In this document: piece by piece, positions 35,962 through 54,733 of the stretch
Layout of the letters: each line of letters begins with the position of its first letter
Position numbering within the stretch: the first letter of the stretch is position 1
Source of the DNA: Commensalibacter papalotli (ex Servin-Garciduenas et al. 2014)
GTDB taxonomy: Bacteria > Pseudomonadota > Alphaproteobacteria > Acetobacterales > Acetobacteraceae
DNA length: 64,000 bases
NCBI RefSeq assembly: GCF_000527695.1
Contig: NZ_ATSX01000002.1
Coordinates: 310,001-374,000 of the forward strand
Direction: 5' to 3'
Translations under genes and position numbers: made by a program
The notes under the pieces: generated by a model
The model's input: only the letters and a program-made list of their open reading frames with translations
Told to the model about the DNA's origin: nothing
The model's database searches: none

Positions 35962-37248
35962 TTAAGTCATTTTGTAATCAATACCCGGTTGTTTCAAACG
36001 GATGAAATAGGTCAATATGGCGGCAAAATAATATAAAAGCCCATAGATAATGAAAACACCATAATTACCAAAACCAATAAAGTAAATGACAGATACCAAC
36101 GCATTACCCAGGAATTGGCTAAGCCCTCCTCCAAGATTTTGAATAGAAACAGCAGCGCCTTTTCTTTCAGGGGCTAACATTGGAAAAATGGCTCCCATAG
36201 GAACAAAGGAGGTAATAGTAAGTGCAAAGAAAAGCATTGCGGCAATACTGGCATAAATATTACCTGGGAATAATGTGGGGATATAGTATAGTAGAATTGT
36301 CGCGGTTCCACATCCAACAAAACCCGCCCAGCGCATTTGCTTTAACCAACCAATACGATCCCCGATAATGCCCCATAAAACGTTACTAAAAGGTTGCAAA
36401 GGATAAATGAAAATACTGATTAATTGCCATTGATGTAAGGTAAATTGTCCACCATCATTTGCGGTCATAAAGTTTGGTAATACTACTGTTAAGACACCAA
36501 ATAAAGAGAAGTTACAGATGGCTCTGATTACTAATGCAATAGCCAGATCTCTACTGCGGAAAACAAGTGTTAAATCACTGACAATATCACTCATTCGTTC
36601 GCCAAGAGATGGCTTTACTGTGTGTTGAACCTCAGTTTTATTTTCTGGTGGCGTTTTTAAAAAGAAAATTGTAATTGCAGCACCAGCAGAAGCCCAAATT
36701 AATGCTTGCCAAAGAGTAAACTCAGCTCCCATCTTTTCAACAAAGAAATAAGGAATACCATATCCTATAATTCCATAGCCAATTGTAAACATTGACCAAA
36801 TCCAACCTACGGCAGATGCAAGTTGATTATCAGGTGTTTCTTTGACTACCCAATAAAAGAAACCATAAAAGAATAAAGGATAAGCAAATCCTCTAAGTCC
36901 ATAAAAAATAAAAATAGCATAATAGTTTTGAGGAACAATACCAAACTGCATAAAGGCAGCATGCAGAACAATCCACATGATCACGCCGATAACCATGATT
37001 CTTTTAGCACCAAAGGTTTCTGCAAAAACCCCTGATAACCAACTGGAAATAGCTGCTGTTAATCCATAAATAGAAAAGATTAAGCTGCCCTTATCTTCAG
37101 CCACACCTAAGTCATGATGAATATAATGGGCCAAGAAACTTTGTTCAAAGCCATCTCCAGCCATAAATAGGGCAACGGCAATATATCCCCAAAAAAGGGA
37201 AACAGGCATGCCGATGACCATACGGGATTTTGCTTGGGAATTGCTCAT
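35962..37248 (-). CDS. MFS polyol permease, RbtT/DalT-like
   Basis: A 428-residue major facilitator. It strongly resembles ribitol/arabinitol permeases of enteric bacteria: LFWGYIAVALFMAGDGFEQ at TM1, a SWLSGVFAETFGAKRIMV loop after TM2, and YGLRGFAYPLFFYGFFYW at TM4. The ATG at 37248 is preferred to an upstream TTG, although neither has a strong ribosome binding site. It follows the xylitol-dehydrogenase-like gene on the same strand, but a terminator separates them, so its expression may be set lower or separately. Substrate inferred as a polyol; which one is not decidable from sequence. Confidence 0.88.
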   Translation of the reverse strand: MSNSQAKSRMVIGMPVSLFWGYIAVALFMAGDGFEQSFLAHYIHHDLGVAEDKGSLIFSIYGLTAAISSWLSGVFAETFGAKRIMVIGVIMWIVLHAAFMQFGIVPQNYYAIFIFYGLRGFAYPLFFYGFFYWVVKETPDNQLASAVGWIWSMFTIGYGIIGYGIPYFFVEKMGAEFTLWQALIWASAGAAITIFFLKTPPENKTEVQHTVKPSLGERMSDIVSDLTLVFRSRDLAIALVIRAICNFSLFGVLTVVLPNFMTANDGGQFTLHQWQLISIFIYPLQPFSNVLWGIIGDRIGWLKQMRWAGFVGCGTATILLYYIPTLFPGNIYASIAAMLFFALTITSFVPMGAIFPMLAPERKGAAVSIQNLGGGLSQFLGNALVSVIYFIGFGNYGVFIIYGLLYYFAAILTYFIRLKQPGIDYKMT

Positions 37249-37285
37249 TTGTGATGTCCACAAAAAATATTGGGTAAAAAGGGAG

Positions 37286-37319
37286 GAAAAAGCCCGTATA
37301 ATAAAATTATAACGGGCTG
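37286..37319 (-). terminator. Terminator between polyol dehydrogenase and permease
   Basis: Arms AGCCCGT (37291-37297) and ACGGGCT (37312-37318), extended by an inner AT stem. On the minus strand the stem is followed by five T (complement of 37286-37291). It would end most transcripts of the dehydrogenase before the permease gene. Confidence 0.8.
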
Positions 37320-37345
37320 TTTATCGAAGCAAAAGAGAAAGTTAC

Positions 37346-38389
37346 TTATTCAGCAACTTTGATCATCAACTTGACATCAGTTGGTTGTGCAGATGCTGCA
37401 CGTTCAAAGGCTTCAATTGCTTTTGATAATGGGTAAATACCAGACATAAGTGGTTTTAAGTTTACTTTTCCAGATGCAATCAAATTGACTGCACGATCAT
37501 AAACATGTGCATAACGGAATATTGTTTCCATATGAATTTCTTTACTTTGTGCAGTAACGAAATCAAAAGGAACTTTATCTACAGGCATACCAACAAATAC
37601 AATGGTTCCGCCAGGTCTGGTGCAAGCAAGAACGGTATCGTATGCTGATGGGTGGCCTGATGCTTCAAAAGTCACATCAACACCCCAACCTTTACCACAT
37701 TCAGCAGTGATTTTATCTTCCAAAGATTCTTTAGTAATATTAACAGGGATAATTCCCTCATACTGTCCAGCAATTTCAAGTTTAGGCGCTGCAACGTCTG
37801 AAATAAATACTTTGCTAGCACCAGAAGCAAGCGCGCCTATTGCGGTTAAAATTCCAATAGGTCCACACCCAACAACTAAACAAATGTCACCAGGTTTAAT
37901 TTTAGCCTTAACACAAGCATGAACACCAATTGCAAAAGGTTCTACAAAAGCACCTTCTTCAAAAGAAACATTGTCTGGTAGTTTAAAAGTAAATGCGGCT
38001 GGATGAACAACAGTTTCTGTTAAACATCCATGAATAGGAGGGGTCGCCCAAAAAGATACATCTGGATCAACATTATATATGCCTAATTTTGCAGCTTTTG
38101 ACAAAGGATTGGGAATACCAGGTTCCATACATACACGGTCGCCAATTTTAAGAGTGGTAACATTTTTACCAATCTCAATAATTGTTCCCGAAGCTTCATG
38201 ACCAAGTATCATAGGTTCATTAACAACAAAAGGCCCAATTTTACCATGTGTATAATAATGAACATCACTGCCACATACACCAACAGTATTAATTTTGATT
38301 TTAACATCATTAGGCCCAACGTGGCCGGGCAAATCAATGTCACGAATACTTAGGTTGCCTTTGCTTTCTAAAACAAGAGCTTTTGCCAT
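37346..38389 (-). CDS. Xylitol/sorbitol-type polyol dehydrogenase (MDR family)
   Basis: NAD-dependent, zinc-containing medium-chain dehydrogenase, 347 residues, oxidising a polyol to the ketose (xylitol to D-xylulose or sorbitol to fructose type). Catalytic zinc ligands are in [10 protein letters not shown] and LGHEASG. The coenzyme loop is [10 protein letters not shown], with FISD after it (Asp, so NAD rather than NADP). The structural zinc loop that normally holds four cysteines reads [20 protein letters not shown] with none, as in bacterial xylitol dehydrogenases. An ideal AGGAGG lies 6 bases before the ATG. It belongs to the polyol island; the 40-codon gene lies upstream on the same strand. 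Confidence 0.9.
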
Positions 38390-38844: not shown

Positions 38845-39080
38845 CAAATTGACTATATTTAATTTTTCAACATAGCTCTATGTGTATATAGTTTATTTCG
38901 TGTTCAACAATCTTTCTGGATAGTCTTGATATTTATATATTCTTTAAAAAGAACAATAACGGATTTATATATCGTATAGATCTGTTAAGTTTACTATAAC
39001 ATTTTCAGAAAGAGGAACAATTATTCTTTTGAAAATAGTGGTCAAAATGACGTGATATTCATTTTTAATAGGGGCTAATG
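38845..39080. other. Intergenic region in the polyol island
   Basis: AT-rich divergent promoter region between the 40-codon gene and the DUF1971 gene. Apart from the short inverted repeat at its left edge, no gene or structure was recognised. Confidence 0.35.
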
Positions 39081-39383
39081 ATGAGTAATCAAGATGAAAA
39101 TTTAATATGTTATAAAATGCTTTCTGTTTGGACAGCAGATACCTTACCAGAAGCCTTCAAAAATCGACATAATACTAAATCTGGAACGTGGGCTAAGTTA
39201 CAGATCTTGTCAGGCGATTTAACAATGGAATTTATGTTAGGGGATGGAACAGTTACGAATCGTATTAAATACTCTACTCTACAACAGCCCCCTTTGATCA
39301 AGCCAAAGCAATATCATCGTATTGCGGCATATAGTAATAATATACGATGCCAGCTTTCTTTTTATGCAAAAGAAGATTCTTGA
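39081..39383 (+). CDS. DUF1971 (TehB/YeaR-like) cupin protein
   Basis: A 100-residue small cupin of the DUF1971 family. LPEAFKNRHNTKSGTWAKLQ, LSGDLTMEF and PPLIKPKQYHRIAAYSNNIRCQLSFY match the YeaR/TehB-N-terminal type. Members are small metal-binding or sensing barrels with no firm reaction. AGGGG lies six bases before the chosen second ATG (the first ATG is one codon upstream). It is convergent with rpiB across a hairpin terminator. Confidence 0.85.
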   Translation: MSNQDENLICYKMLSVWTADTLPEAFKNRHNTKSGTWAKLQILSGDLTMEFMLGDGTVTNRIKYSTLQQPPLIKPKQYHRIAAYSNNIRCQLSFYAKEDS

Positions 39384-39454: not shown

Positions 39455-39913
39455 TTATGAAGATATTGCTTTTTTTTCGTAATAATTAATACGGTCTACT
39501 TTTGGTGCAGAGCTACCACCAGAGAATTCAGAATCCAACCATGCTTTAACTACCATTTTTGCTAATTCAGGACCTACAACTCTTTCCCCTAATGTAATAA
39601 TTTGTGCATTATTGCTTTTTCTTGCTCGTTCGGCGGAAAATGTATCATGGCATTGTGCCGCACGAATGCCAGGAATTTTATTCGCTGTAATTGCCATGCC
39701 AATGCCTGTTCCACAGACTAAAATTCCACGTTCATGTTTGCCCTCTTTGATAGCTTGTCCAACAGACCATGCAATATCAGGATATAAATTAGATTCACGA
39801 CTTGCATCAGTGCTGTAATCTACAACTTTTATACCGATAGATTCTAACCATTCTACCAAAGTATTTTTTAAACTAACTGCAGCGTCATCACAACCAATTG
39901 CAATAGGTAACAT
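39455..39913 (-). CDS. rpiB: RpiB/LacA-family sugar-phosphate isomerase
   Basis: A 152-residue aldose-ketose phosphate isomerase of the RpiB family. IGCDDAAVSLKNTLVEWL is the N-terminal phosphate-site region, GILVCGTGIGMAITANKIPGIRAAQCHD holds the catalytic Cys (CGTGIG), and SNNAQIITLGERVVG follows. In Brucella and Mycobacterium tetritol pathways a member of this family (EryI/DerI) turns D-erythrulose 4-phosphate into D-erythrose 4-phosphate. The neighbours here make that the leading alternative to ribose 5-phosphate isomerase. The start is supported by AAGGAAAAAAAATA. Divergent from the erythritol-dehydrogenase-like gene, with operator-like repeats between. Confidence 0.9.
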   Translation of the reverse strand: MLPIAIGCDDAAVSLKNTLVEWLESIGIKVVDYSTDASRESNLYPDIAWSVGQAIKEGKHERGILVCGTGIGMAITANKIPGIRAAQCHDTFSAERARKSNNAQIITLGERVVGPELAKMVVKAWLDSEFSGGSSAPKVDRINYYEKKAISS

Positions 39914-39929
39914 TATTTTTTTTCCTTAG

Positions 39930-39968
39930 GTTAAAAGTTTTAACAAGTTAAAATGTTTAAACGCGTTT
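39930..39968. promoter_or_regulatory. Tandem operator-like palindromes upstream of rpiB
   Basis: GTTAAAAGTTTTAAC (39930-39944) is a perfect palindrome with a G centre. GTTAAAATGTTTAAAC follows at 39947 with the same phase plus two, i.e. 17 bases later. Next comes AAACGCGTTT (39959-39968), a perfect palindrome with the CG centre typical of LacI-type operators. They lie 17-55 bases upstream of the rpiB ATG. A related GTTAAAATCGTTCAA lies at 40158, just before the divergent dehydrogenase gene. Binding protein unknown. Confidence 0.45.
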
Positions 39969-40187
39969 TCAAAAATTATCACGAAGAATTTAAATATAAC
40001 ACATAGAAAATATAGGAATTTTACGTAATCAATATCTTAAGTCAATGAAAACATCTCCTATTTACCCTTGTTGTTCCAATAGTCTTAAAAGTCAAATCAC
40101 ATGTATTTTATTTGTATTAAAAACTAAATTACTCAATGATGCAAAGTTGGAATTAAAGTTAAAATCGTTCAAGAAAGAGTAATAGCG

Positions 40188-41303
40188 ATGACAGAAAGTA
40201 AAATTGGCCCAGTAGCTAAATTGGACAACATCCCTAAAACAATGCGTGCAATTGTTGCTTATGCCCCTCATGATTATCGTTTTGAAGAAGTGCCTGTTCC
40301 TGAAATTGGTCCAAATGAAATTTTAGTCAAAATCGAAGCGTGTGGCATCTGCGCAGGCGATGTGAAATCTTTCGAAGGGGCTCCAAGTTTTTGGGGGGAT
40401 GATAAACAACCTGCATATATTAAGGCTCCGATGATTCCTGGCCATGAATTTATTGGACATGTGGTTGCTTATGGTGAAGGGGTCAAAGATTTTAAGTTAA
40501 ATGATCGTATTACATCTGAGCAAATTGTTCCTTGCTGGGATTGCCGTTTTTGTAATCGTGGTGAATATTGGATGTGTGAAAAACACGATTTGTACGGTTT
40601 CCAATATAATGTAAATGGTGGAATGGCTGAATATATTAAAATTCCTAAAGAGGGAATTAACCACCATGTTCCAGATGATCTTCCAATGAACAAAGCTATT
40701 TTGATTGAACCTTATGCTTGTTCTTTACATGCTGTTCAACGTGCTAGTGTTAAACTAGGTGATTTTGTTGTTCTTTCAGGGGCGGGAACCCTTGGTCTCG
40801 GAATGATTGGTGCGATTAAAAAGTCTGGCCCAGATAAACTGGTTGTTCTTGATCTTAGCGAAGAACGTCTTGCAATTGCAAAACAGTTTGGTGCTGATAT
40901 TGTAATGAACCCAGCTAAAGAAGATGTTGTTCAAAAAATTAAAGATATGACCGAAGGTTATGGTTGTGACATTTATATTGAAGCAACAGGTGCCGGTAAA
41001 TCTGTGGAGCAAGGATTGGCAATGATCCGTAAATTGGGTCGTTTTGTTGAATTCTCTGTGTTCAAAGATCCAGTGGCTGTGGATTGGAGCATCATTAGTG
41101 ATCGTAAAGAATTGGATGTATTAGGATCTCATCTTGGACCTTATTGTTATCCAATGACGATCAAAGGCATTCAAAATGGTGATTTCCCAACCGAGGGTGT
41201 GGTTACGCATGTTTTTCCATTGGAAAAATATCAGGAAGCCTTTGACATCATGAAAAAGGGTGTTGGCTCTTTGAAAGTCGTTTTAGATCCAAACATGAAA
41301 TAG
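40188..41303 (+). CDS. Erythritol/L-threitol dehydrogenase-like zinc alcohol dehydrogenase
   Basis: A 371-residue zinc-dependent medium-chain dehydrogenase. Catalytic ligands are CGICAGDVKSF and PGHEFIGHVV; the structural zinc has all four cysteines (CWDCRFCNRGEYWMC). The coenzyme loop is LSGAGTLGLGMIGAI, with VLD after it, favouring NAD. The pattern YRFEEVPVPEIGPNEILVKI and ICAGDVKSFEGAPSFWGDD closely recalls the erythritol/L-threitol dehydrogenase (EltD) of Mycobacterium smegmatis, which oxidises erythritol to D-erythrulose and L-threitol to L-erythrulose. It heads the operon with permease, SDR and DhaK/DhaL. The substrate assignment is by motif memory and context, not tested. Confidence 0.85.
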   Translation: MTESKIGPVAKLDNIPKTMRAIVAYAPHDYRFEEVPVPEIGPNEILVKIEACGICAGDVKSFEGAPSFWGDDKQPAYIKAPMIPGHEFIGHVVAYGEGVKDFKLNDRITSEQIVPCWDCRFCNRGEYWMCEKHDLYGFQYNVNGGMAEYIKIPKEGINHHVPDDLPMNKAILIEPYACSLHAVQRASVKLGDFVVLSGAGTLGLGMIGAIKKSGPDKLVVLDLSEERLAIAKQFGADIVMNPAKEDVVQKIKDMTEGYGCDIYIEATGAGKSVEQGLAMIRKLGRFVEFSVFKDPVAVDWSIISDRKELDVLGSHLGPYCYPMTIKGIQNGDFPTEGVVTHVFPLEKYQEAFDIMKKGVGSLKVVLDPNMK

Positions 41304-41312
41304 CATTTTTTT

Positions 41313-41347
41313 GATTAAAAGCTTGGTGTTTACACTAGGCTTTTATC
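41313..41347 (+). other. Intercistronic RNA hairpin between dehydrogenase and permease
   Basis: Stem of about 15 base pairs: AAAAGCTTGGTG pairs with CACTAGGCTTTT around a TTTA loop (with G-U pairs), extended by GAT/ATC across a bulged T. It lies 9 bases after the dehydrogenase stop and 18 before the permease ATG, with no T tract after it. It therefore looks like an mRNA stabilising or partial-attenuation element rather than a full terminator. Confidence 0.6.
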
Positions 41348-41365
41348 AAGATTAAGGAAGAATGT

Positions 41366-42640
41366 ATGTCCAATTTAATTAACAAAATTTTTGTCTCTCC
41401 TAAATTAATGCTTGGCTATTTCGGGGTGATGATTTTTATGGCTGGTGAAGGTTTAGAGCTAAACTGGTTGCCAGAATATTTGCAGCAATCTGGTCATATG
41501 ACTCAGGCTCAAACAGGTTTAATTTATACGATTTATGGATTGATGGTTGCCATTTCATCATGGTTTTCTGGTGTTTTAGCTGAGATCTATGGCGTTAGAC
41601 GCGTAATGTTTATTGGACTGATTTTGTTTTATGTTGGTTCATTCTTCTTTTTAACTTTTGGAATGCCTACGCATAATTTATATTGGATTATTCCTACTTA
41701 TGCGATCAGAGGATTGGCTTATCCATTATTTGCTTATGGTTTCTTGGTTTGGGTTGCTTATGAAGCACCTGCTGAAAAATTAGGATCAGCAGTAGGTATT
41801 TTCTGGTTTATGTATTCTGGAGGGGTTGCAGTCATTGGTACTGGATACTCTAACGTTATGTTAAACTATTACCATATTTCACATTTGCATGTTCTATGGA
41901 CAGCATTGATTTTTGTTACCATTGGTGCTGTTGTTGCTTTGGCATTAAGTGGTGGAGATAAAAATAGTGAAAACAAGAAAACAGAAAAAGCTTCTTTTTC
42001 TTATTTGTTAAATGGATTAACAATTTTAACCAAAAAACCAAAAGTCGCTATGGGTGGTATTGTTCGTATGATTAATACGAGTGCAGCCTATGGTTTTCCA
42101 GTATTTATTCCTGCATTATTGATTGCCGAACATTATGATAAAGATGTGTGGTTATCAGTGGTAACTTGGCTTTGGATGGTAAATGTTATCTTTAATTTAT
42201 TATGGGGTATTATTGGCGATAAATTAGGATGGCGTAACGTTGTGATGTGGTTTGGTTGTGTAGGCTGTGCGATTACAACTTTCCTATTCTACTATGCAAT
42301 CGAGGCTCATGCTTCAGTGTTAACAATTACATTAATTGCCAGTGTATATGGTTGTTTCCTTGCTGCATTTGTTCCATTGTCTGCGATTATGCCAATGTTG
42401 GCGCCTAAAGATAAAGGTGCAGCAATGTCTATCCTAAACTTTGGTGCTGGGATGAGTTATTTCTTTGGATATTTTATCGTAACACTATTTATTGCTTCTG
42501 TTGGTAATGCAGGCGTTATTTATATCTATACAGTTTTGTATTTAGTTGCAGCATGCTTAATGGTTTTCGTAAATGTTGGTCAACCTAAAACTGATAGTGT
42601 TGAGCACGAAGTTGCTGTTGCTGTTAAAGAAGCATTATAG
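41366..42640 (+). CDS. MFS polyol permease, RbtT/DalT-like (second copy)
   Basis: A 424-residue major facilitator of the same subgroup as the permease at 35962. It shows LGYFGVMIFMAGEGLELNWL at TM1, SWFSGVLAEIYGVRRVMF after TM2 and YAIRGLAYPLFAYGFLVWVA at TM4. The second half contains WGIIGDKLGWRNVVMWFGCVG. Similar motif order but clearly diverged sequence argues for different substrates or affinities. It is second in the dehydrogenase-permease-SDR-DhaK-DhaL operon, so its cargo is most likely the same polyol oxidised by those enzymes. Confidence 0.88.
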   Translation: MSNLINKIFVSPKLMLGYFGVMIFMAGEGLELNWLPEYLQQSGHMTQAQTGLIYTIYGLMVAISSWFSGVLAEIYGVRRVMFIGLILFYVGSFFFLTFGMPTHNLYWIIPTYAIRGLAYPLFAYGFLVWVAYEAPAEKLGSAVGIFWFMYSGGVAVIGTGYSNVMLNYYHISHLHVLWTALIFVTIGAVVALALSGGDKNSENKKTEKASFSYLLNGLTILTKKPKVAMGGIVRMINTSAAYGFPVFIPALLIAEHYDKDVWLSVVTWLWMVNVIFNLLWGIIGDKLGWRNVVMWFGCVGCAITTFLFYYAIEAHASVLTITLIASVYGCFLAAFVPLSAIMPMLAPKDKGAAMSILNFGAGMSYFFGYFIVTLFIASVGNAGVIYIYTVLYLVAACLMVFVNVGQPKTDSVEHEVAVAVKEAL

Positions 42641-42676
42641 TTTATTTTATAGTTGATTATTTAAGGAGTATCGTTG

Positions 42677-43432
42677 ATGTCTAAGAAAGAAATGTTTGAT
42701 TTAGCTGGTAAAGTTGCTGTTATTACAGGTGGTGGTGCAGGAATTGGGAATGAGATTGCTCATGCTTATCTTGCTAAAGGTGTAAAAGTTGCTCTATTAG
42801 ATCGTGCAGATAACATTGCAGATATCGCCAAAAACTTAGGCGCAGATAAAGCGATTGGTATTCAGCTTGATGTCACCAGTAAAGATCAAATTACGAAAGC
42901 AGTAAAAGCTGTTGTCGATCATTATGGCTGTATTGATATTTTGGTAAATTGTGCTGGTGTTGCGTTATTAGATGCTGCTGAAAATATTAGCGAAGATATG
43001 TGGAATGCAACGATTAATATTAATTTAACAGGCACATTTCTTGTTTGCCAAGCAGTGGGTAATGTGATGTTAAAACAAGGGCATGGTTCTATTATTAACC
43101 TTGCCTCTCAAGCTGGTGTGGTTGCTTTGCCTAATCATGTCGCTTATTGTGCAAGTAAGGCTGGTGTGATTGGTCTTACTCAAGTATTATCATTGGAATG
43201 GGGGCCATCCAATATTAATGTAAACTCTATTTCCCCTACGGTTGTTTTAACTGAACTCGGTAAAAAAGCATGGGCAGGTAAAATTGGTGAAGAATTTAAG
43301 GCAAAAATTCCATCACGTCGTTTTGCTGAACCTGAACAAATTGCAGCAGCAGCTGTTTACTTGGCGAGTAGTGAAGCATCCATTATTAATGGCGCTAATT
43401 TAGTTATCGATGGTGGTTTTACAGTCCAGTAA
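42677..43432 (+). CDS. GolD/DthD-type short-chain polyol dehydrogenase
   Basis: A 251-residue SDR. GGGAGIGNEIAHAYL is the coenzyme loop with LLDRAD after strand 2 (Asp, so NAD). Catalytic Ser is in NLASQAGVVAL and YCASKAGVIGLTQVLSLEW holds Tyr-Lys. SPTVVLTELGKKAWAG and RFAEPEQIAAAAVYLAS match the GolD/DthD group, which oxidises D-threitol, D-arabitol or related polyols at C2. The ATG at 42677 was chosen over a TTG one codon earlier, with GGAG upstream. Next to the EltD-like gene it suggests that two stereoisomers of a tetritol are handled. Confidence 0.88.
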   Translation: MSKKEMFDLAGKVAVITGGGAGIGNEIAHAYLAKGVKVALLDRADNIADIAKNLGADKAIGIQLDVTSKDQITKAVKAVVDHYGCIDILVNCAGVALLDAAENISEDMWNATININLTGTFLVCQAVGNVMLKQGHGSIINLASQAGVVALPNHVAYCASKAGVIGLTQVLSLEWGPSNINVNSISPTVVLTELGKKAWAGKIGEEFKAKIPSRRFAEPEQIAAAAVYLASSEASIINGANLVIDGGFTVQ

Positions 43433-43470
43433 TATCACAGTGGTATTTCTCTAATTAAAGTGAATGAATT

Positions 43471-44475
43471 ATGAAATTAAATAGAATTATTAACGATCCT
43501 GATCTTGTAGTCGAAGATGCAATTGAAGGTTATGTTGCTGCTCATCCAGAGCTTTTCGCAAAAACAGATCACGAAAGAGTATTGAAATACCCTGCTATTC
43601 CTCAAAAGGGAAAAGTCGGGATTGTAACTGGTGGTGGTTCAGGTCATGAACCTGCATTCTTGGGCTATGTTGGTAAAAATATGGTTGATGCTGTGGCTAT
43701 TGGTGAAATCTTTTCTTCACCAACAGCAGGAGCGTTCCTTGATGCAATGAAAGCATCTGATGGTGGTGCTGGTGTTGCATGTCTTTATGGGAACTATGCT
43801 GGCGATAATATGAATGTTAAAATGGCAGTTAAGAAAGCTGCTGCTGCTGGTATTACGGTTAAGACTGTTGTTGCAAATGATGATGTTGCTTCTGCTCCAA
43901 TTACAGAAAGGGAAAAACGTCGTGGTGTTGCTGGCGAAATCCTAATGTGGAAAGTTGGTGGTGCGGCTGCTGCGGCTGGATATGATCTTGATGGTGTTAT
44001 TGCTGCTGCACAAAAAGCTATTGATAATTGCCGTTCCATTGGTGTTGGTTTAAGTTCTTGTATTATTCCTGCTGTGGGTCATCCAAACTTCAATATTGAT
44101 AATGGTATGATGGAAGTTGGTATTGGACATCATGGTGAACCAGGGATTAACGTTGTTCCTTTACAACCTGCCAAAGAAATGGCTCATACAATGTTAGAGC
44201 CAATTTTAAAAGAAGGAATCTTTGAAGCAGGTTCTGAAGTTGTTGTATTAGTTTCTGGTTTGGGTGCGACCCCTACAATGGAACTTTATATTTATTATGC
44301 TGAAGTTGATCGTATTTTAAAAGAAAAAGGCGTAAAAGTTCATCGTAGTTATGTTGGAAATTATTTCACCTCCCTTGAAATGATGGGTGTTACGCTTTCT
44401 ATGATGAAACTAGATGACGAGTTGAAGAAACTTGTTGATGCTCCTGTTCATTCTCTTGGTATGGTTCAAGGTTAA
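43471..44475 (+). CDS. dhaK: Dihydroxyacetone kinase subunit DhaK (possible erythrulose kinase)
   Basis: A 334-residue substrate-binding subunit. The covalent substrate histidine is in GIGHHGEPG (near residue 220), the general base Asp in YAGDNMNVKMA, and VTGGGSGHEP is the substrate pocket. DhaK holds dihydroxyacetone or, in DerK/LerK-type relatives, erythrulose for phosphorylation. No DhaM (the PTS phosphoryl donor) is in the island, so an ATP-using DhaK-DhaL pair is plausible. dhaL starts 4 bases after its stop. Surrounding tetritol dehydrogenases favour erythrulose over dihydroxyacetone. Confidence 0.93.
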   Translation: MKLNRIINDPDLVVEDAIEGYVAAHPELFAKTDHERVLKYPAIPQKGKVGIVTGGGSGHEPAFLGYVGKNMVDAVAIGEIFSSPTAGAFLDAMKASDGGAGVACLYGNYAGDNMNVKMAVKKAAAAGITVKTVVANDDVASAPITEREKRRGVAGEILMWKVGGAAAAAGYDLDGVIAAAQKAIDNCRSIGVGLSSCIIPAVGHPNFNIDNGMMEVGIGHHGEPGINVVPLQPAKEMAHTMLEPILKEGIFEAGSEVVVLVSGLGATPTMELYIYYAEVDRILKEKGVKVHRSYVGNYFTSLEMMGVTLSMMKLDDELKKLVDAPVHSLGMVQG

Positions 44476-44479
44476 TAAA

Positions 44480-45124
44480 ATGTCTGAAGTTGTTGTTATT
44501 AAAAATGGTGTTGATATTGTTGATGATTTGATCAATGTAATTGTTAGTAATCGTGATTACTTAAGTGAGATCGATGGTGCTATTGGGGACGGAGATCATG
44601 GAATTAATATGGCTAAAGGATTCAATATTTGTAAGAAACGTATTGATGGCAAAGAATTAACATTATCTGAAGCTTTGGCAGAACTAAGTGATTCCTTAAT
44701 GGAAGGAATTGGCGGTTCTATGGGGCCTTTATATGGCTGTATCTTTACGGGTTGGTCAGATAGCATTCAAGGTAAAACTGAGCTAACCAAAGAAGATGTT
44801 CAAGCTATGTTGGCTAATGGAATAAGTGAGTTACAAGATATCAGCCCAGCTCAAAAAGGTGATAAATGTTTGGTTGATACACTTTTTCCTGCCGTTGAAA
44901 GTTTTGAACAAGCTGTCAAAGATGGTAAAAGCTTTAAAGAAGCATTAACTATTATGAAAAATGCCGCCGCCAAAGGTCGTGATTCAACTAAGGATCTTGT
45001 TGCTAAGATTGGTCGTGCTAGCCGTTTAGGTGAGCGCTCTAAAGGCGTGCTAGATGCTGGTGCAGCTTCATGTTGTTTATTGGTTACTCAGTTAGCTGAC
45101 AGCCTTGAATCAAAGATGAATTAA
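44480..45124 (+). CDS. dhaL: Dihydroxyacetone kinase nucleotide-binding subunit DhaL
   Basis: A 214-residue nucleotide-binding subunit. Mg/nucleotide motifs are IDGAIGDGDHGINMAKGF (three Asp/His ligands), GGSMGPLYG, and a C-terminal GERSKGVLDAGAASCCLLV. The ATG at 44480 gives the standard N-terminus; a reading frame 16 codons longer overlaps dhaK and is unlikely. The gene is last in the polyol operon and followed by a clear terminator. In PTS types DhaL carries tightly bound ADP; in ATP types it binds exchangeable ATP. Sequence inspection cannot separate these two. Confidence 0.93.
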   Translation: MSEVVVIKNGVDIVDDLINVIVSNRDYLSEIDGAIGDGDHGINMAKGFNICKKRIDGKELTLSEALAELSDSLMEGIGGSMGPLYGCIFTGWSDSIQGKTELTKEDVQAMLANGISELQDISPAQKGDKCLVDTLFPAVESFEQAVKDGKSFKEALTIMKNAAAKGRDSTKDLVAKIGRASRLGERSKGVLDAGAASCCLLVTQLADSLESKMN

Positions 45125-45154: not shown

Positions 45155-45190
45155 AAAACCGTGCTCTTTTACTGAAAAGCACGGTTTTTT
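45155..45190 (+). terminator. Terminator of the polyol operon
   Basis: AAAACCGTGCT (45155-45165) pairs with AGCACGGTTTT (45178-45188), followed by a T run to 45190. Thirty bases after the dhaL stop. Confidence 0.92.
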
Positions 45191-49678: not shown

Positions 49679-51751
49679 ATGAATATTGATGAACTTTGTA
49701 TTAATACAATTCGTGGTTTAGCGATTGACCAAGTACAGGCTGCCAATTCTGGGCATCCTGGAACACCAATGGGTTTGGCACCAGCTGCATATGCGCTGTG
49801 GAATAACGTGTTAAATTATGATCCAGCAAACCCATTATGGCCAGCACGCGATCGTTTTGTGCTTTCTGGTGGTCACGCTTCTGCATTATTATATTCAATG
49901 ATTCATTTAGCTGGAATTCACAATGTTACCCATGATGGTAAAGTTGAGCAAAAGCCAGCATTGACTCTACAAGATTTAGAACAGTTTAGACAGTTTAATT
50001 CAAAAACTCCTGGTCATCCAGAATATCGTCATACAGCTGGTGTTGAAACAACCACAGGACCTTTGGGACAAGGGTTGGCAACTTCTGTAGGGATGGCCAT
50101 TGCACAAAAATGGTTGGCCTCAAGATATAATCAACAAGGTTTTCCTTTGTTTGATTATCACATCTATACCTTCTGTGGTGATGGTGATTTAATGGAAGGA
50201 ATTTCTTATGAAGCTGCTTCTGTTGCTGGTCATTTAAAACTTGGAAATTTGGTTTGGGTTTACGACCGTAACCGCATTTCTATTGAAGGTAATATTAACA
50301 TTGCCTTTACAGACGATGTTGCAAAACGCTTCAAAGCCCAAGGTTGGCATATTCATGAAGTGAAAGATGCCAATAACATTGCAGACTTCCAAGCAAAATT
50401 ACATGAAGCACGTCAAGCATCTGATGCACCAAGTTTGGTTATCTTAGATAGTATCATTGGGTATGGTTCTCCTAACAAAGCTGGTACACATGGTGTTCAT
50501 GGTGAACCTCTTGGACCAGATGAAGTTAAGGCAACTAAAAAAGTATATGGTATGCCTGAAGATAAAACATTCTATGTTGCAGATGGCGTCAAAGAACATT
50601 TTGCTGCTGGCATTGGTAAACGTGGTGCGGAAGCAAGCCAAAAATGGAATGCATTATTTGCTGAATATAAAACAAAGCATCCAGAACTTGCTCAAGAAAT
50701 TGAAGATATTATTCATCATCGTTTACCAAAAGGGTGGGACAAAGATATTCCAGTTTTTGAGGCTGATCCAAAAGGGGTTGCTTCTCGTGCAAGTTCTGGA
50801 AAAGTATTGAACGCAATTGCTAAAAACATTCCTTGGATGGTTGGTGGGTCTGCTGACCTTGCACCTTCAAATAAAAGCTGGTTAGAATTTGCTGACGCAG
50901 GTGTATTCCAAAGCCCTGATTATCCAGAAGGTAATGGCACTTTTTGTGGTCGTAATATTCATTACGGTGTTCGTGAACACGCAATGGGTGCAATCGCCAA
51001 TGGTATCGCATTAAGTGGTCTTAGAACTTACGCTGCTGGATTCTTTATTTTCTCTGATTATATGAAAAACCCAGTTCGCTTGGCTTCTATTATGGGCTTG
51101 CCGATTGTTTATGTATTTACACATGATAGTATTGGTGTTGGCGAAGATGGTCCGACCCATCAACCTATTGAACAATTAGCACATTTCCGTGCAACTCCAG
51201 GGATTCGTACAATTCGACCAGCGGATGCAAATGAAGTTGTAGAAGCATGGAAACTGGCAATGGGACAAGATTATAATCATGCTCATCCTGTTGTTTTGGC
51301 ATTAAGCCGTCAAAATTTACCCACTATTGATCGTTCTAAATACGCCTCTGCTGCAGGGTTACACAAAGGGGGTTATGTTGTTGCTTGTTGTGGTGAGTTG
51401 CCTGAAGTGATCTTGATTGCATCTGGCAGTGAAGTTGGGCTGGCGATGGAAGCATATGAGGTATTGATTAAAGAAGGTCAAAAAGCTCGTGTTGTTTCTA
51501 TGCCTTCATGGGAAATCTTTGAAGAGCAACCACAATCTTATCGTGACGAAGTATTACCTCCACATATCACGGGTCGTGTTGCGATCGAACAGGGATCTCC
51601 AATTGGTTGGGACCGTTATGCAGGTCCAACTGGAGCCATCATTGCAATGCGCAGTTTTGGGGCTTCTGCACCTTATGATAAATTACGCGAACATTTCGGT
51701 TTTACAGTAGAAAATGTTCTTAAAGTTGCTAGAGAGCAGCTTAAAAAATAG
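49679..51751 (+). CDS. tkt: Transketolase
   Basis: TPP-dependent two-carbon transfer between pentose phosphates, glyceraldehyde 3-phosphate and erythrose 4-phosphate. The 690 residues show the N-terminal TPP motif YTFCGDGDLMEGISYEAASVAG, GHPGTPMGLAP and ETTTGPLGQGLATSVG. The middle PYR domain has YGVREHAMGAIANGIAL and THDSIGVGEDGPTHQP, and the C-terminal domain follows. It heads the block tkt-tal-pgi-gnd on one strand and has its own terminator. It would receive erythrose 4-phosphate from the polyol island. Confidence 0.97.
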   Translation: MNIDELCINTIRGLAIDQVQAANSGHPGTPMGLAPAAYALWNNVLNYDPANPLWPARDRFVLSGGHASALLYSMIHLAGIHNVTHDGKVEQKPALTLQDLEQFRQFNSKTPGHPEYRHTAGVETTTGPLGQGLATSVGMAIAQKWLASRYNQQGFPLFDYHIYTFCGDGDLMEGISYEAASVAGHLKLGNLVWVYDRNRISIEGNINIAFTDDVAKRFKAQGWHIHEVKDANNIADFQAKLHEARQASDAPSLVILDSIIGYGSPNKAGTHGVHGEPLGPDEVKATKKVYGMPEDKTFYVADGVKEHFAAGIGKRGAEASQKWNALFAEYKTKHPELAQEIEDIIHHRLPKGWDKDIPVFEADPKGVASRASSGKVLNAIAKNIPWMVGGSADLAPSNKSWLEFADAGVFQSPDYPEGNGTFCGRNIHYGVREHAMGAIANGIALSGLRTYAAGFFIFSDYMKNPVRLASIMGLPIVYVFTHDSIGVGEDGPTHQPIEQLAHFRATPGIRTIRPADANEVVEAWKLAMGQDYNHAHPVVLALSRQNLPTIDRSKYASAAGLHKGGYVVACCGELPEVILIASGSEVGLAMEAYEVLIKEGQKARVVSMPSWEIFEEQPQSYRDEVLPPHITGRVAIEQGSPIGWDRYAGPTGAIIAMRSFGASAPYDKLREHFGFTVENVLKVAREQLKK

Positions 51752-51767
51752 TGGATTAGATGAAAAG

Positions 51768-51800
51768 AGCCCTCTTTACAATAGCTAGAAAGAGGGCTTT
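51768..51800 (+). terminator. Terminator of tkt
   Basis: AGCCCTCTTT (51768-51777) pairs with AAAGAGGGCT (51789-51798) followed by TTTAAT. Seventeen bases after the tkt stop, so tal probably has its own promoter or depends on readthrough. Confidence 0.85.
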
Positions 51801-51870
51801 AATATTTGTAATATGACATAATTAGTACATAATTTGTTTTATAAGTTAACTTTAAAAGGAAAAAATTCAA

Positions 51871-53007
51871 ATGGCTGAAAATCCTCTTGTTCAACTTGAA
51901 AAATATGGACAATCTCCGTGGTTAGATTTTATTCAACGTTCTTTTACTGCGAATGGCAGTCTTAAAAAATTGGTTGATGAAGATAACCTTAAAGGGGTTA
52001 CTTCTAACCCAGCAATTTTTGAAAAAGCAATGGGTCATGGAACAGAATATGATCCACAATTCAAAGAATTAATTGCATCTGGCTTGACTGATGTTCCAAC
52101 ATTATATGAAACAGCCGCGATTGAAGATATCCGCAATACATGTAAAGTAATGTTTCCTGTGTGGGAAAAAACCAAAGGCGTTGATGGATATGTAAGCCTG
52201 GAAGTGTCTCCTTATATTGCGATGGATGGTCAAAAGACAATCGAAGAAGCACGTCGTTTATGGAAACAAGTTGCTGAAAAAAATCTGATGATTAAAATTC
52301 CAGCAACAGCACCCTGTATTCCTGCGATTGAAACAGCAATTTCTGAAGGCATTAACGTTAATGTCACTTTGTTGTTCTCTTTGGATGCTTATAAAAATGT
52401 TTTAGAAGCCTATATTGCTGGTTTAGAAAAACATCTAGCCAAAGGTCATCATATTGGTCATATTTCCAGTGTTGCCTCATTCTTTGTAAGTCGTATTGAT
52501 ACAGCAATTGATAAAGAAATCGATACCCGTGTTGCTGCTGGTGACAAAGATAGTGCAGCATTAAAAGCTGTTCGTGGTAAAGTCGCCCTTGCGAATGCGA
52601 AAATGGCTTATCAACATTATCTTGAAGTTTTAAAAACAGATCGTTGGAAAAAGCTTGCTGCTGCTGGTGCTAAACCACAACGTTTATTGTGGGCAAGTAC
52701 TGGATGTAAAGATAAATCTTTCCCTGACACAATCTATGTTGATGAGTTGATTGGTCAAGATACCGTGAATACAATTCCTCCTGCAACAATGGATGCTTTT
52801 CGCGATCATGGAACGGCTTCTCAAACACTAGATAAGGATGTTGAGGGAGCTAAAAAAATATTATCAGAAGCTCAACGTTTAAATTTAAATTTAGCAGGTG
52901 TAACAGATAAATTGTTAGCTGATGGTGTTGCTCAATTTGCAACTGCATTTGATCAACTGTTGGGTTCTGTTAAAGAAAAACTAGAAACTTTACAAAGTGG
53001 GAAATAA
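51871..53007 (+). CDS. tal: Transaldolase
   Basis: Class I aldolase moving dihydroxyacetone between sedoheptulose 7-phosphate and erythrose 4-phosphate. The 378-residue (long, TalB-like bacterial subfamily) product has GVTSNPAIFEKAM, the Schiff-base lysine in NLMIKIPATAPCIPAIE (near residue 141), GHISSVASFFVSRIDTAIDK and RLLWASTGCKDKSFPDT. In acetic acid bacteria such as Gluconobacter this domain is usually fused to glucose-6-phosphate isomerase; here a stop codon separates it from the pgi gene. Confidence 0.95.
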   Translation: MAENPLVQLEKYGQSPWLDFIQRSFTANGSLKKLVDEDNLKGVTSNPAIFEKAMGHGTEYDPQFKELIASGLTDVPTLYETAAIEDIRNTCKVMFPVWEKTKGVDGYVSLEVSPYIAMDGQKTIEEARRLWKQVAEKNLMIKIPATAPCIPAIETAISEGINVNVTLLFSLDAYKNVLEAYIAGLEKHLAKGHHIGHISSVASFFVSRIDTAIDKEIDTRVAAGDKDSAALKAVRGKVALANAKMAYQHYLEVLKTDRWKKLAAAGAKPQRLLWASTGCKDKSFPDTIYVDELIGQDTVNTIPPATMDAFRDHGTASQTLDKDVEGAKKILSEAQRLNLNLAGVTDKLLADGVAQFATAFDQLLGSVKEKLETLQSGK

Positions 53008-53011
53008 TTTA

Positions 53012-54733
53012 ATGCAGGACGAACAATTAATTCAAATGCAATCTGCATTACCAGCAGATCATCAAAAAGCCGTGCAAGAAGGCCTAAACGCTTGGGATAA
53101 AGAGGGTAAAGTCAAAAAAATCTGGGCGCGTGATGCTTCTGTGTGGACAGGAAAAGATGAAAGTAAATGGCTTGGGTGGTTAGATATTGTTGATGAACAA
53201 GTTGGTGACCTTGCAACCCTTGAGGCTTTTCAAAACGAAGTTAAAGCCAGAGGTTTTACGGATGTTTTATTGCTTGGAATGGGAGGGTCTAGTCTTGGGC
53301 CAGAAGTTTTAGGTGAAGTATTTGGTCATCAAACAGGTTTCCCAACTCTGCATGTGTTGGATAGTACAGACCCACAACAAGTTTTTACCTTTCAACAAAA
53401 AGTAGATCTAGGGAAAACGTTATTCATTGTTTCTTCTAAATCTGGTGGAACATTAGAGCCAAACATTTTAAAAGCTTATTTCTATAATGAAGCTAAAAAA
53501 GTTGTTGGTGATAAGGTCGGAAGCCATTTTGTGACTGTAACTGATCCTGGTTCTCATATGGAAGATGTTGCTAAACAAGACGGTTTTTGGAAAATCTTTT
53601 ACGGTAAAAAAGATATTGGTGGACGTTATTCTGTCTTATCTAATTTTGGTATTATCCCCGCAGCAGCAGCTGGACTACCACTAAGGGCTTTGTTACAATC
53701 TGCTCATAAAATGCAAAAAGCATGTGCCGCAGAAACTTCTTTGACTCAAAATCTTGGTCTCCAGTTGGGCGCTATCTGGGGAACAGCGGTTGCACAATTC
53801 AAAAGAGATAAATTTACCATTATTGCTTCTCCTGCCATTAACTCTTTGGGTGCTTGGTTGGAACAGTTGCTTGCTGAATCAACAGGTAAGATTGGTAAGG
53901 GTATTGTTCCAATTGATGAGGAAACTCTGACAACCCCAGATCATTATGGTAATGATCGTTTGTTTGTGTATTTGCGTTTAAATGGTAATGTTGATGCAGC
54001 TCAAGATAAAGCATTAGAAGCTTTAAAAGCAGCTGGTCATCCAGTGGTTACCTTGAATTTACAAGATAAGAACCAAATTGCACAAGTTTTCTATCAAACC
54101 GAATTCGCAACGGCAGTCGCTGGTTCCTTTATTAGAATTGATCCATTTGATCAACCTGATGTTGAAGCAAGTAAAATCGAAACCAAAAAAATTACCACAG
54201 CTTATAATGAGCATGGTAAGTTACCAGATATTACCCCTGTGGTTCGTGATGGTAATTTTGAAGTATATGCAGGTAAAGTTGAAGTTGAAAAATTACAAAA
54301 TGCTTCTTCTTTGACAGATGCTTTAAAAACATTATTTTCTCAGGTTCAAACTGGGGATTATGTTGGTGTATTGGCTTATATCGAACGTGATCTTGCAACG
54401 CGTGATTGGATTCAAAAAATTCGTTTGGCTATTCGTGACAAGAAAAAAGTTGCAACAGCTGCGGAATTTGGTCCTCGTTTCTTACACTCTACAGGCCAAG
54501 CCTATAAAGGTGGGCCAAAAACAGGTGTATTCTTGCAAATCACTGTTGATGATGTCAAAGATTTGCCAGTTCCAGCAGAAAAATATACATTTGGAATTGT
54601 AAAAGAGGCACAAGCTCGTGGTGATTTTGATGTTTTGTCAGAACGTGATAGAAGAGTGATCCGTATTCATGTCAAAGGGGATATGAAAGCGGGCTTGGAA
54701 ACTTTGAGCAAGACTATTTTAAGCGCTTTGTAG
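53012..54733 (+). CDS. pgi: Glucose-6-phosphate isomerase
   Basis: Interconverts glucose 6-phosphate and fructose 6-phosphate. With the ATG at 53012 the product has 573 residues; a GTG at 52997 overlapping tal is an alternative. SIS-domain motifs are LLGMGGSSLGPEVLGEVF, FIVSSKSGGTLEPNILKAY and GGRYSVLSNFGIIPAA, with ALGAWLEQLLAEST-like NSLGAWLEQLLAESTGKIG downstream. The protein is of the type normally seen as the C-terminal half of a Tal-Pgi fusion. AGTGGGAAAT serves as ribosome binding site, inside the end of tal, so translation is probably coupled. Confidence 0.95.
   Translation: MQDEQLIQMQSALPADHQKAVQEGLNAWDKEGKVKKIWARDASVWTGKDESKWLGWLDIVDEQVGDLATLEAFQNEVKARGFTDVLLLGMGGSSLGPEVLGEVFGHQTGFPTLHVLDSTDPQQVFTFQQKVDLGKTLFIVSSKSGGTLEPNILKAYFYNEAKKVVGDKVGSHFVTVTDPGSHMEDVAKQDGFWKIFYGKKDIGGRYSVLSNFGIIPAAAAGLPLRALLQSAHKMQKACAAETSLTQNLGLQLGAIWGTAVAQFKRDKFTIIASPAINSLGAWLEQLLAESTGKIGKGIVPIDEETLTTPDHYGNDRLFVYLRLNGNVDAAQDKALEALKAAGHPVVTLNLQDKNQIAQVFYQTEFATAVAGSFIRIDPFDQPDVEASKIETKKITTAYNEHGKLPDITPVVRDGNFEVYAGKVEVEKLQNASSLTDALKTLFSQVQTGDYVGVLAYIERDLATRDWIQKIRLAIRDKKKVATAAEFGPRFLHSTGQAYKGGPKTGVFLQITVDDVKDLPVPAEKYTFGIVKEAQARGDFDVLSERDRRVIRIHVKGDMKAGLETLSKTILSAL

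Follow-up and report, generated by a model that had tools for sequence, protein, structure and literature searches.

A tetritol (four-carbon sugar alcohol) pathway of Mycobacterium smegmatis, with the enzymes EltD, DthD, LerK, LerI, DerK and DerI, was reportedly described by Huang in 2015. EltD converts erythritol to D-erythrulose (PMC10733421). In the ery pathway of Brucella and rhizobia, erythritol is phosphorylated first by EryA, followed by EryB, EryC and the EryH isomerase, which resembles triosephosphate isomerase (TIM). Tetrose transporters and kinases were termed "still enigmatic" in a 2025 paper (PMC12780249). Here we analyzed a 64,000-nucleotide stretch (the window; G+C 37%) of the 2.33 Mb genome of Commensalibacter papalotli, in which a six-gene set very probably converts tetritols such as erythritol to a central sugar phosphate.

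Gene content and predicted pathway

The locus contains the following features, given in window coordinates:

39455..39913, minus strand: rpiB-like gene, with Asp10 and Ser100 at the RpiB His10/His99 positions and the catalytic Cys67 retained
40099..40115, no strand: candidate operator box ACATGTATTTTATTTGT, a 17 bp near-palindrome between rpiB and the zinc dehydrogenase gene
40188..41303, plus strand: EltD-like zinc dehydrogenase (ZnDH), 371 amino acids, predicted to convert erythritol to D-erythrulose
41366..42640, plus strand: RbtT/DalT/CsbX-family permease of the major facilitator superfamily (MFS), predicted tetritol importer
42677..43432, plus strand: GolD/DthD-family short-chain dehydrogenase (SDR), predicted D-threitol dehydrogenase
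43471..44475, plus strand: DhaK-type substrate-binding kinase subunit (motifs GNYAGD and GHHGEPG), predicted D-erythrulose kinase subunit
44480..45124, plus strand: DhaL-type nucleotide-binding kinase subunit, 214 amino acids
About 45155..45190, plus strand: probable rho-independent terminator of the operon (strong hairpin and T-run, fold -18.6 kcal/mol)

The locus follows the M. smegmatis pathway in its reaction logic and protein families (EltD-like ZnDH, GolD/DthD SDR, DAK-type kinase, RpiB-family isomerase). It differs in that the kinase is encoded by two genes and belongs to a distinct clade (38% identity, GHHGEPG), the isomerase is 46% identical and lies outside the curated DerI lineage, an MFS permease is present instead of an ATP-binding cassette importer, and LerI is absent. 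Throughout, M. wolinskyi served as proxy for M. smegmatis in sequence comparisons, the M. smegmatis genome not being in the collection. Judged by sequence, the operon is a variant of the M. smegmatis route whose kinase clade and isomerase lineage are distinct. With the ery pathway it shares an RpiB-family isomerase as the last enzyme, here predicted to give erythrose 4-phosphate. Like the phosphotransferase-dependent DhaKLM system, it has separate DhaK and DhaL and retains the active-site Asp and covalent-substrate His, but it lacks DhaM, carries Gly for Lys104 and is associated with a Ser99 RpiB. Its gene order, rpiB <> ZnDH-MFS-(SDR)-DhaK-DhaL, is also that of an apparently uncharacterized operon on enterobacterial plasmids, which differs in including tal or tkt and tal and a SorC-type regulator gene, and in lacking the SDR in its Raoultella and E. 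coli versions.

All six genes named by an initial annotation of the window were found intact where it had placed them, and their families were borne out by family scans (TIGR00897, NF005309, Dak1, Dak2, RpiB). The start of dhaL was corrected from TTG 44432 to ATG 44480, and that of the SDR gene to ATG 42677. The rpiB-like gene diverges from the five-gene plus-strand run ZnDH-permease-SDR-dhaK-dhaL (40188-45124), whose intergenic gaps are 62, 36, 38 and 4 bp. Because of these short gaps and the hairpin and T-run 3' of dhaL, the five genes likely form one operon. A transketolase/transaldolase block about 4 kb away, previously proposed to take the product, does exist (tkt/tal/pgi, 49679-54733); however, it lies outside the operon, with opposite-strand OprB, HisC and ankyrin genes in between, and looks like a housekeeping set.

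We assign a probability of about 0.72 to the reading that this operon serves growth on tetritols. Erythritol and/or D-threitol would be imported by the RbtT-type permease and oxidized with NAD(P)+ to D-erythrulose, erythritol by the EltD-like ZnDH and D-threitol by the DthD-like SDR. DhaK and DhaL would phosphorylate D-erythrulose at C4; since DhaM is missing, DhaL presumably binds the ATP and exchanges it. The RpiB-family product of the divergent gene would then convert D-erythrulose 4-phosphate to D-erythrose 4-phosphate, which would feed the non-oxidative pentose phosphate pathway. The tetritol to erythrose 4-phosphate route, first proposed in the initial annotation as near-complete, is favored over glycerol/DHA or pentitol use by the kinase class, the isomerase residues and a separate dihydroxyacetone (DHA) kinase, and further by tkt/tal genes inside orthologous operons, EltD-specific motifs and the absence of LerI; for the D-erythrulose branch it looks complete.

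Classes of the kinase, isomerase and dehydrogenases

The DHA kinases of E. coli, L. lactis, C. freundii and yeast carry a KNYxGD motif with Lys at E. coli position 104. The window DhaK reads GNYAGD, with Gly replacing Lys104, as does the M. wolinskyi kinase adjoining EltD and RpiB; the catalytic Asp109 is retained. Window DhaL passed its TIGR02365 cut-off (167.7 against 138.3 bits), and DhaK stayed below the DhaK equivalog cut-off of TIGR02363 (349 against 406 bits). Of 88 DhaK domains placed in a tree, those with Lys104 formed a single clade (support 0.997) comprising the kinases of E. coli and L. lactis, the fused DHA kinase of C. papalotli itself and 29 others, and the window DhaK fell outside it, together with the M. 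wolinskyi kinase. An rpiB gene was found within 7 kb of 31 of 57 Gly-type kinases (20/36 of the His-His type, which is the window class, and 11/21 of the others) vs 0 of 30 Lys-type kinases (Fisher P 4e-8, a guide only, the rows being related and including a few duplicates). Motif and tree place the window kinase in a DAK class distinct from DHA kinases.

Erythrose 4-phosphate cannot form a furanose ring, its O4 being esterified. In RpiB, the furanose ring of ribose 5-phosphate is opened by His99 in E. coli numbering (PMC3755991), and the E. coli H99N variant has an unchanged Km and a 26-fold lower kcat (PMC4783025). The C. papalotli genome has two RpiB proteins: the housekeeping one retains His10 and His99, and the window RpiB has Ser (Ser100) in place of the ring-opening histidine and Asp at position 10. 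The same Asp10/Ser99 pair occurs in the RpiBs of M. wolinskyi and Coccidioides immitis, and because of these residues the authors of the C. immitis crystal structure proposed shorter-chain substrates (PMC3212906). Since the ring-opening histidine is absent, the window RpiB would suit open-chain substrates, and at the residue level it is predicted to be able to act on an open-chain tetrulose phosphate. The C. immitis protein (PDB 3QD5) is itself probably a tetrose-phosphate isomerase and not a ribose 5-phosphate isomerase.

The isomerase residues followed the kinase class. Ser99 was present in all 31 RpiBs adjoining Gly-type kinases, and His10 was replaced in 30 of them. Among 15 genomes with a window-type kinase and no adjacent rpiB, 14 encoded a Ser99 RpiB elsewhere, compared with none of the 17 RpiBs from 18 genomes with Lys-type kinases only (P 2e-8). 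In a Pseudalkalibacillus operon (L099, 12561-14704), the RpiB has Ser99 and retains His10; its kinase has the His-His motif yet sits outside the main His-His clade, so this motif may have arisen twice. On pSymB of S. meliloti (L229), two DhaK/DhaL pairs stand in tandem, the first-named type being the window class and the other a Gly-Ile class, with several unlabelled genes upstream.

ZnDH matched no curated equivalog (the best was threonine dehydrogenase, 226 bits against a cut-off of 458), and its best match among solved structures reached 192 bits. It was 49% identical (419 bits) to the EltD-like protein of M. wolinskyi, with which it shares an FWGD insertion and the motifs EQIVPCWxCRFC, HDLYGF and VDWSIISD (VDWSII). 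Slightly changed, these motifs also occur in a Providencia protein named erythritol/L-threitol dehydrogenase. These features mark ZnDH as a putative EltD-like erythritol dehydrogenase. The SDR exceeded the NF005309 GolD/DthD cut-off (374 against 286 bits) and has a 56% identical family relative in M. wolinskyi, and the permease exceeded that of TIGR00897 (RbtT/DalT/CsbX; 469 against 375 bits).

Conservation, neighbors and regulation

The same arrangement was found in six of the seven genomes of the genus, this one counted. A sister genus (G013) also has it, with a gene for a SorC-type regulator after dhaL. Among 299 Acetobacteraceae genomes, 43 encode a DhaK at least 61% identical to that of the window. 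A close ZnDH is encoded in 28 genomes, all 28 of which also carry this DhaK (P about 1e-28, phylogeny not corrected), with the two genes within about 4 kb in 27. Other genera hold partial sets (DhaK-DhaL with RpiB, with SDR or with ZnDH), and in some the kinase subunits are fused. The split kinase is thus not special to this organism: across Acetobacteraceae, members of its clade are found in both split and fused form. A gene adjoining a DhaKL-ZnDH pair in one genus (g85), considered as a pyrroloquinoline quinone dehydrogenase gene, was rejected, as it encodes a TonB receptor.

Outside Acetobacteraceae, the closest relatives found were on enterobacterial plasmids, with ZnDH and DhaK 75-78% identical. 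Salmonella plasmid pSA20021456.1 has the order tal-rpiB <> ZnDH-MFS-SDR-DhaK-DhaL-SorC, and Raoultella pKPYL1 and E. coli pEM20-18-50_2 have tkt-tal-rpiB <> ZnDH-MFS-DhaK-DhaL-SorC. The operon occurred once among 5,426 E. coli genomes. The plasmids carrying it (L097, L098, L102) belong to types IncFIB/IncFII, IncI1 and IncHI1B, and two were typed as conjugative. Pseudalkalibacillus has ZnDH-MFS-rpiB-dhaK-dhaL-glpX, and in Sphaerotilus an open reading frame matching Tkt and Tal comes after a fused kinase gene. The tkt/tal neighbors point to a product entering the non-oxidative pentose phosphate pathway, for they would be unneeded for dihydroxyacetone phosphate (DHAP). On a plasmid of Halomonas sp. 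PA16-9 (L100), tkt and a fused kinase are split over several frames, probably through sequencing errors.

Taken together, these results present as new a separate kinase clade, the isomerase signature paired with it, and the spread of that clade. We lean, with some reserve, towards a wider proposal: that members of the GNYAGD/GHHGEPG clade, whether split or fused, make up an uncharacterized family of D-erythrulose kinases that use ATP and are obligatorily linked to a Ser99-type RpiB; that, together with the TIM-linked class described below, the clade gives acetic acid bacteria two parallel routes for tetruloses; and that plasmids, some of them conjugative, have carried it into Enterobacteriaceae, all of these genes at present bearing the annotations DHA kinase and ribose-phosphate isomerase. 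For the window kinase and isomerase, and for their counterparts in many relatives, the residue patterns indicate that the labels "dihydroxyacetone kinase" and "ribose-phosphate isomerase" are probably incorrect.

In the genus members that were checked, a single copy of the near-palindrome (ACATGTATTTTATTTGT in the window), a candidate operator, lies between rpiB and ZnDH. A promoter scan returned fewer sites than in shuffled sequences. The single SorC-family protein of the genome was rejected as regulator of the operon: it is 25-31% identical to the cognate SorC proteins, which share 49-79% identity with one another, and it belongs to another polyol locus (L234, G000:C4:198001-212000). That locus encodes an RbtT-type permease (50% identical to the window permease), two SDRs and a glycerol-kinase-like protein scoring below cut-off. 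Beside the operon, a second polyol module (window 35962-38389) encodes a xylitol-type zinc dehydrogenase and another RbtT-family permease (452 bits), and a 101-amino-acid open reading frame upstream of rpiB (39078-39383) is 53-68% conserved within the genus. A full-text literature search for Commensalibacter with erythritol returned no relevant paper, and dihydroxyacetone goes unmentioned in a comparative genomics paper on the genus (PMC10149009).

Competing routes and significance

Several observations weigh against the tetritol reading. The window DhaK is just 38% identical to the mycobacterial kinase, and the mycobacterial comparisons rest on the M. wolinskyi proxy. The window RpiB passes the TIGR01120 cut-off for ribose 5-phosphate isomerase B (149 against 138.65 bits) and, at 175.5 bits, stays under the cut-off of 240 for curated rhizobial DerI (NF051858), on which the housekeeping RpiB scores 112.9. 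RbtT-family permeases carry pentitol names, in several Acetobacteraceae neither a dehydrogenase gene nor rpiB adjoins the kinase gene, and this genus lacks the SorC regulator found with the operon elsewhere.

The intermediate could instead be L-erythrulose, made for example in the periplasm from erythritol by a quinoprotein polyol dehydrogenase. Acetic acid bacteria often have such an enzyme and are known to make L-erythrulose from erythritol. Mycobacterial LerK accepts both enantiomers (PMC10733421). However, L-erythrulose 1-phosphate requires a TIM-family LerI ahead of DerI, and no EryH/LerI-type isomerase was found in the genome, in agreement with the initial annotation; it has exactly one TIM-family gene. 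Moreover, a TIM-family gene lay within 7 kb of none of the 36 His-His-type kinases, compared with 7 of the 21 other Gly-type kinases. We consider this route unlikely. The window kinase class needs no LerI and therefore fits D-erythrulose 4-phosphate as product. Seven other Acetobacteraceae loci (L222, L224, L225, L226, L227, L228 and L194) combine a Gly-type DAK, fused except in L194, with a TIM-like gene and a Ser99 RpiB. Of three RpiBs tested from these sets, two, from L222 and L226, score above the cut-off for curated DerI (240.2 and 240.7 bits), and the sets look like a LerK-LerI-DerI route for L-erythrulose.

An ordinary glycerol/DHA route, in which the dehydrogenases would yield DHA, DhaKL would form DHAP and RpiB would be incidental, is slightly less probable again. 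The DhaK/DhaL family names speak for it, and GolD in Listeria is named as a glycerol dehydrogenase. However, the window kinase, with Gly in place of Lys104, falls apart from the DHA kinases in the tree, the genome encodes a separate fused DHA kinase (a full-length match to the Citrobacter enzyme, 712 bits), Ser99 RpiBs co-occur with this kind of kinase, and orthologous operons contain tkt/tal. The reported lack of DhaM was upheld, as the sole EIIA-man match in the genome falls below cut-off. The single TIM gene, the missing DhaM, the housekeeping RpiB and the separate DHA kinase make both the L-erythrulose branch and plain DHA use unlikely. A pentitol route, with ribitol, D-arabitol or xylitol oxidized, the pentulose phosphorylated by DhaKL and the pentose phosphate isomerized by RpiB, is very improbable: the RbtT/DalT-family permease and the adjoining xylitol-type module would suit it, but the RpiB has lost its ring-opening histidine, ZnDH has EltD-specific motifs, we know of no DhaK-type pentulose kinase, and another locus of the genome (L234) combines an RbtT permease, SDRs and a sugar-kinase-family gene.

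DHA kinase and ribose-phosphate isomerase can be told apart from the predicted tetrulose enzymes by two residue tests, Lys104 to Gly in DhaK and His99 to Ser in RpiB, which would mend annotation in many genomes. Our analysis predicts erythritol use for insect-associated acetic acid bacteria. It also shows that Klebsiella, Raoultella, Salmonella and E. coli harbor plasmids with the predicted tetritol operon. The latter contrasts with the abstract of a 2023 paper, according to which pathways for erythritol catabolism are absent from the microbes of the human gut (PMC10190533).

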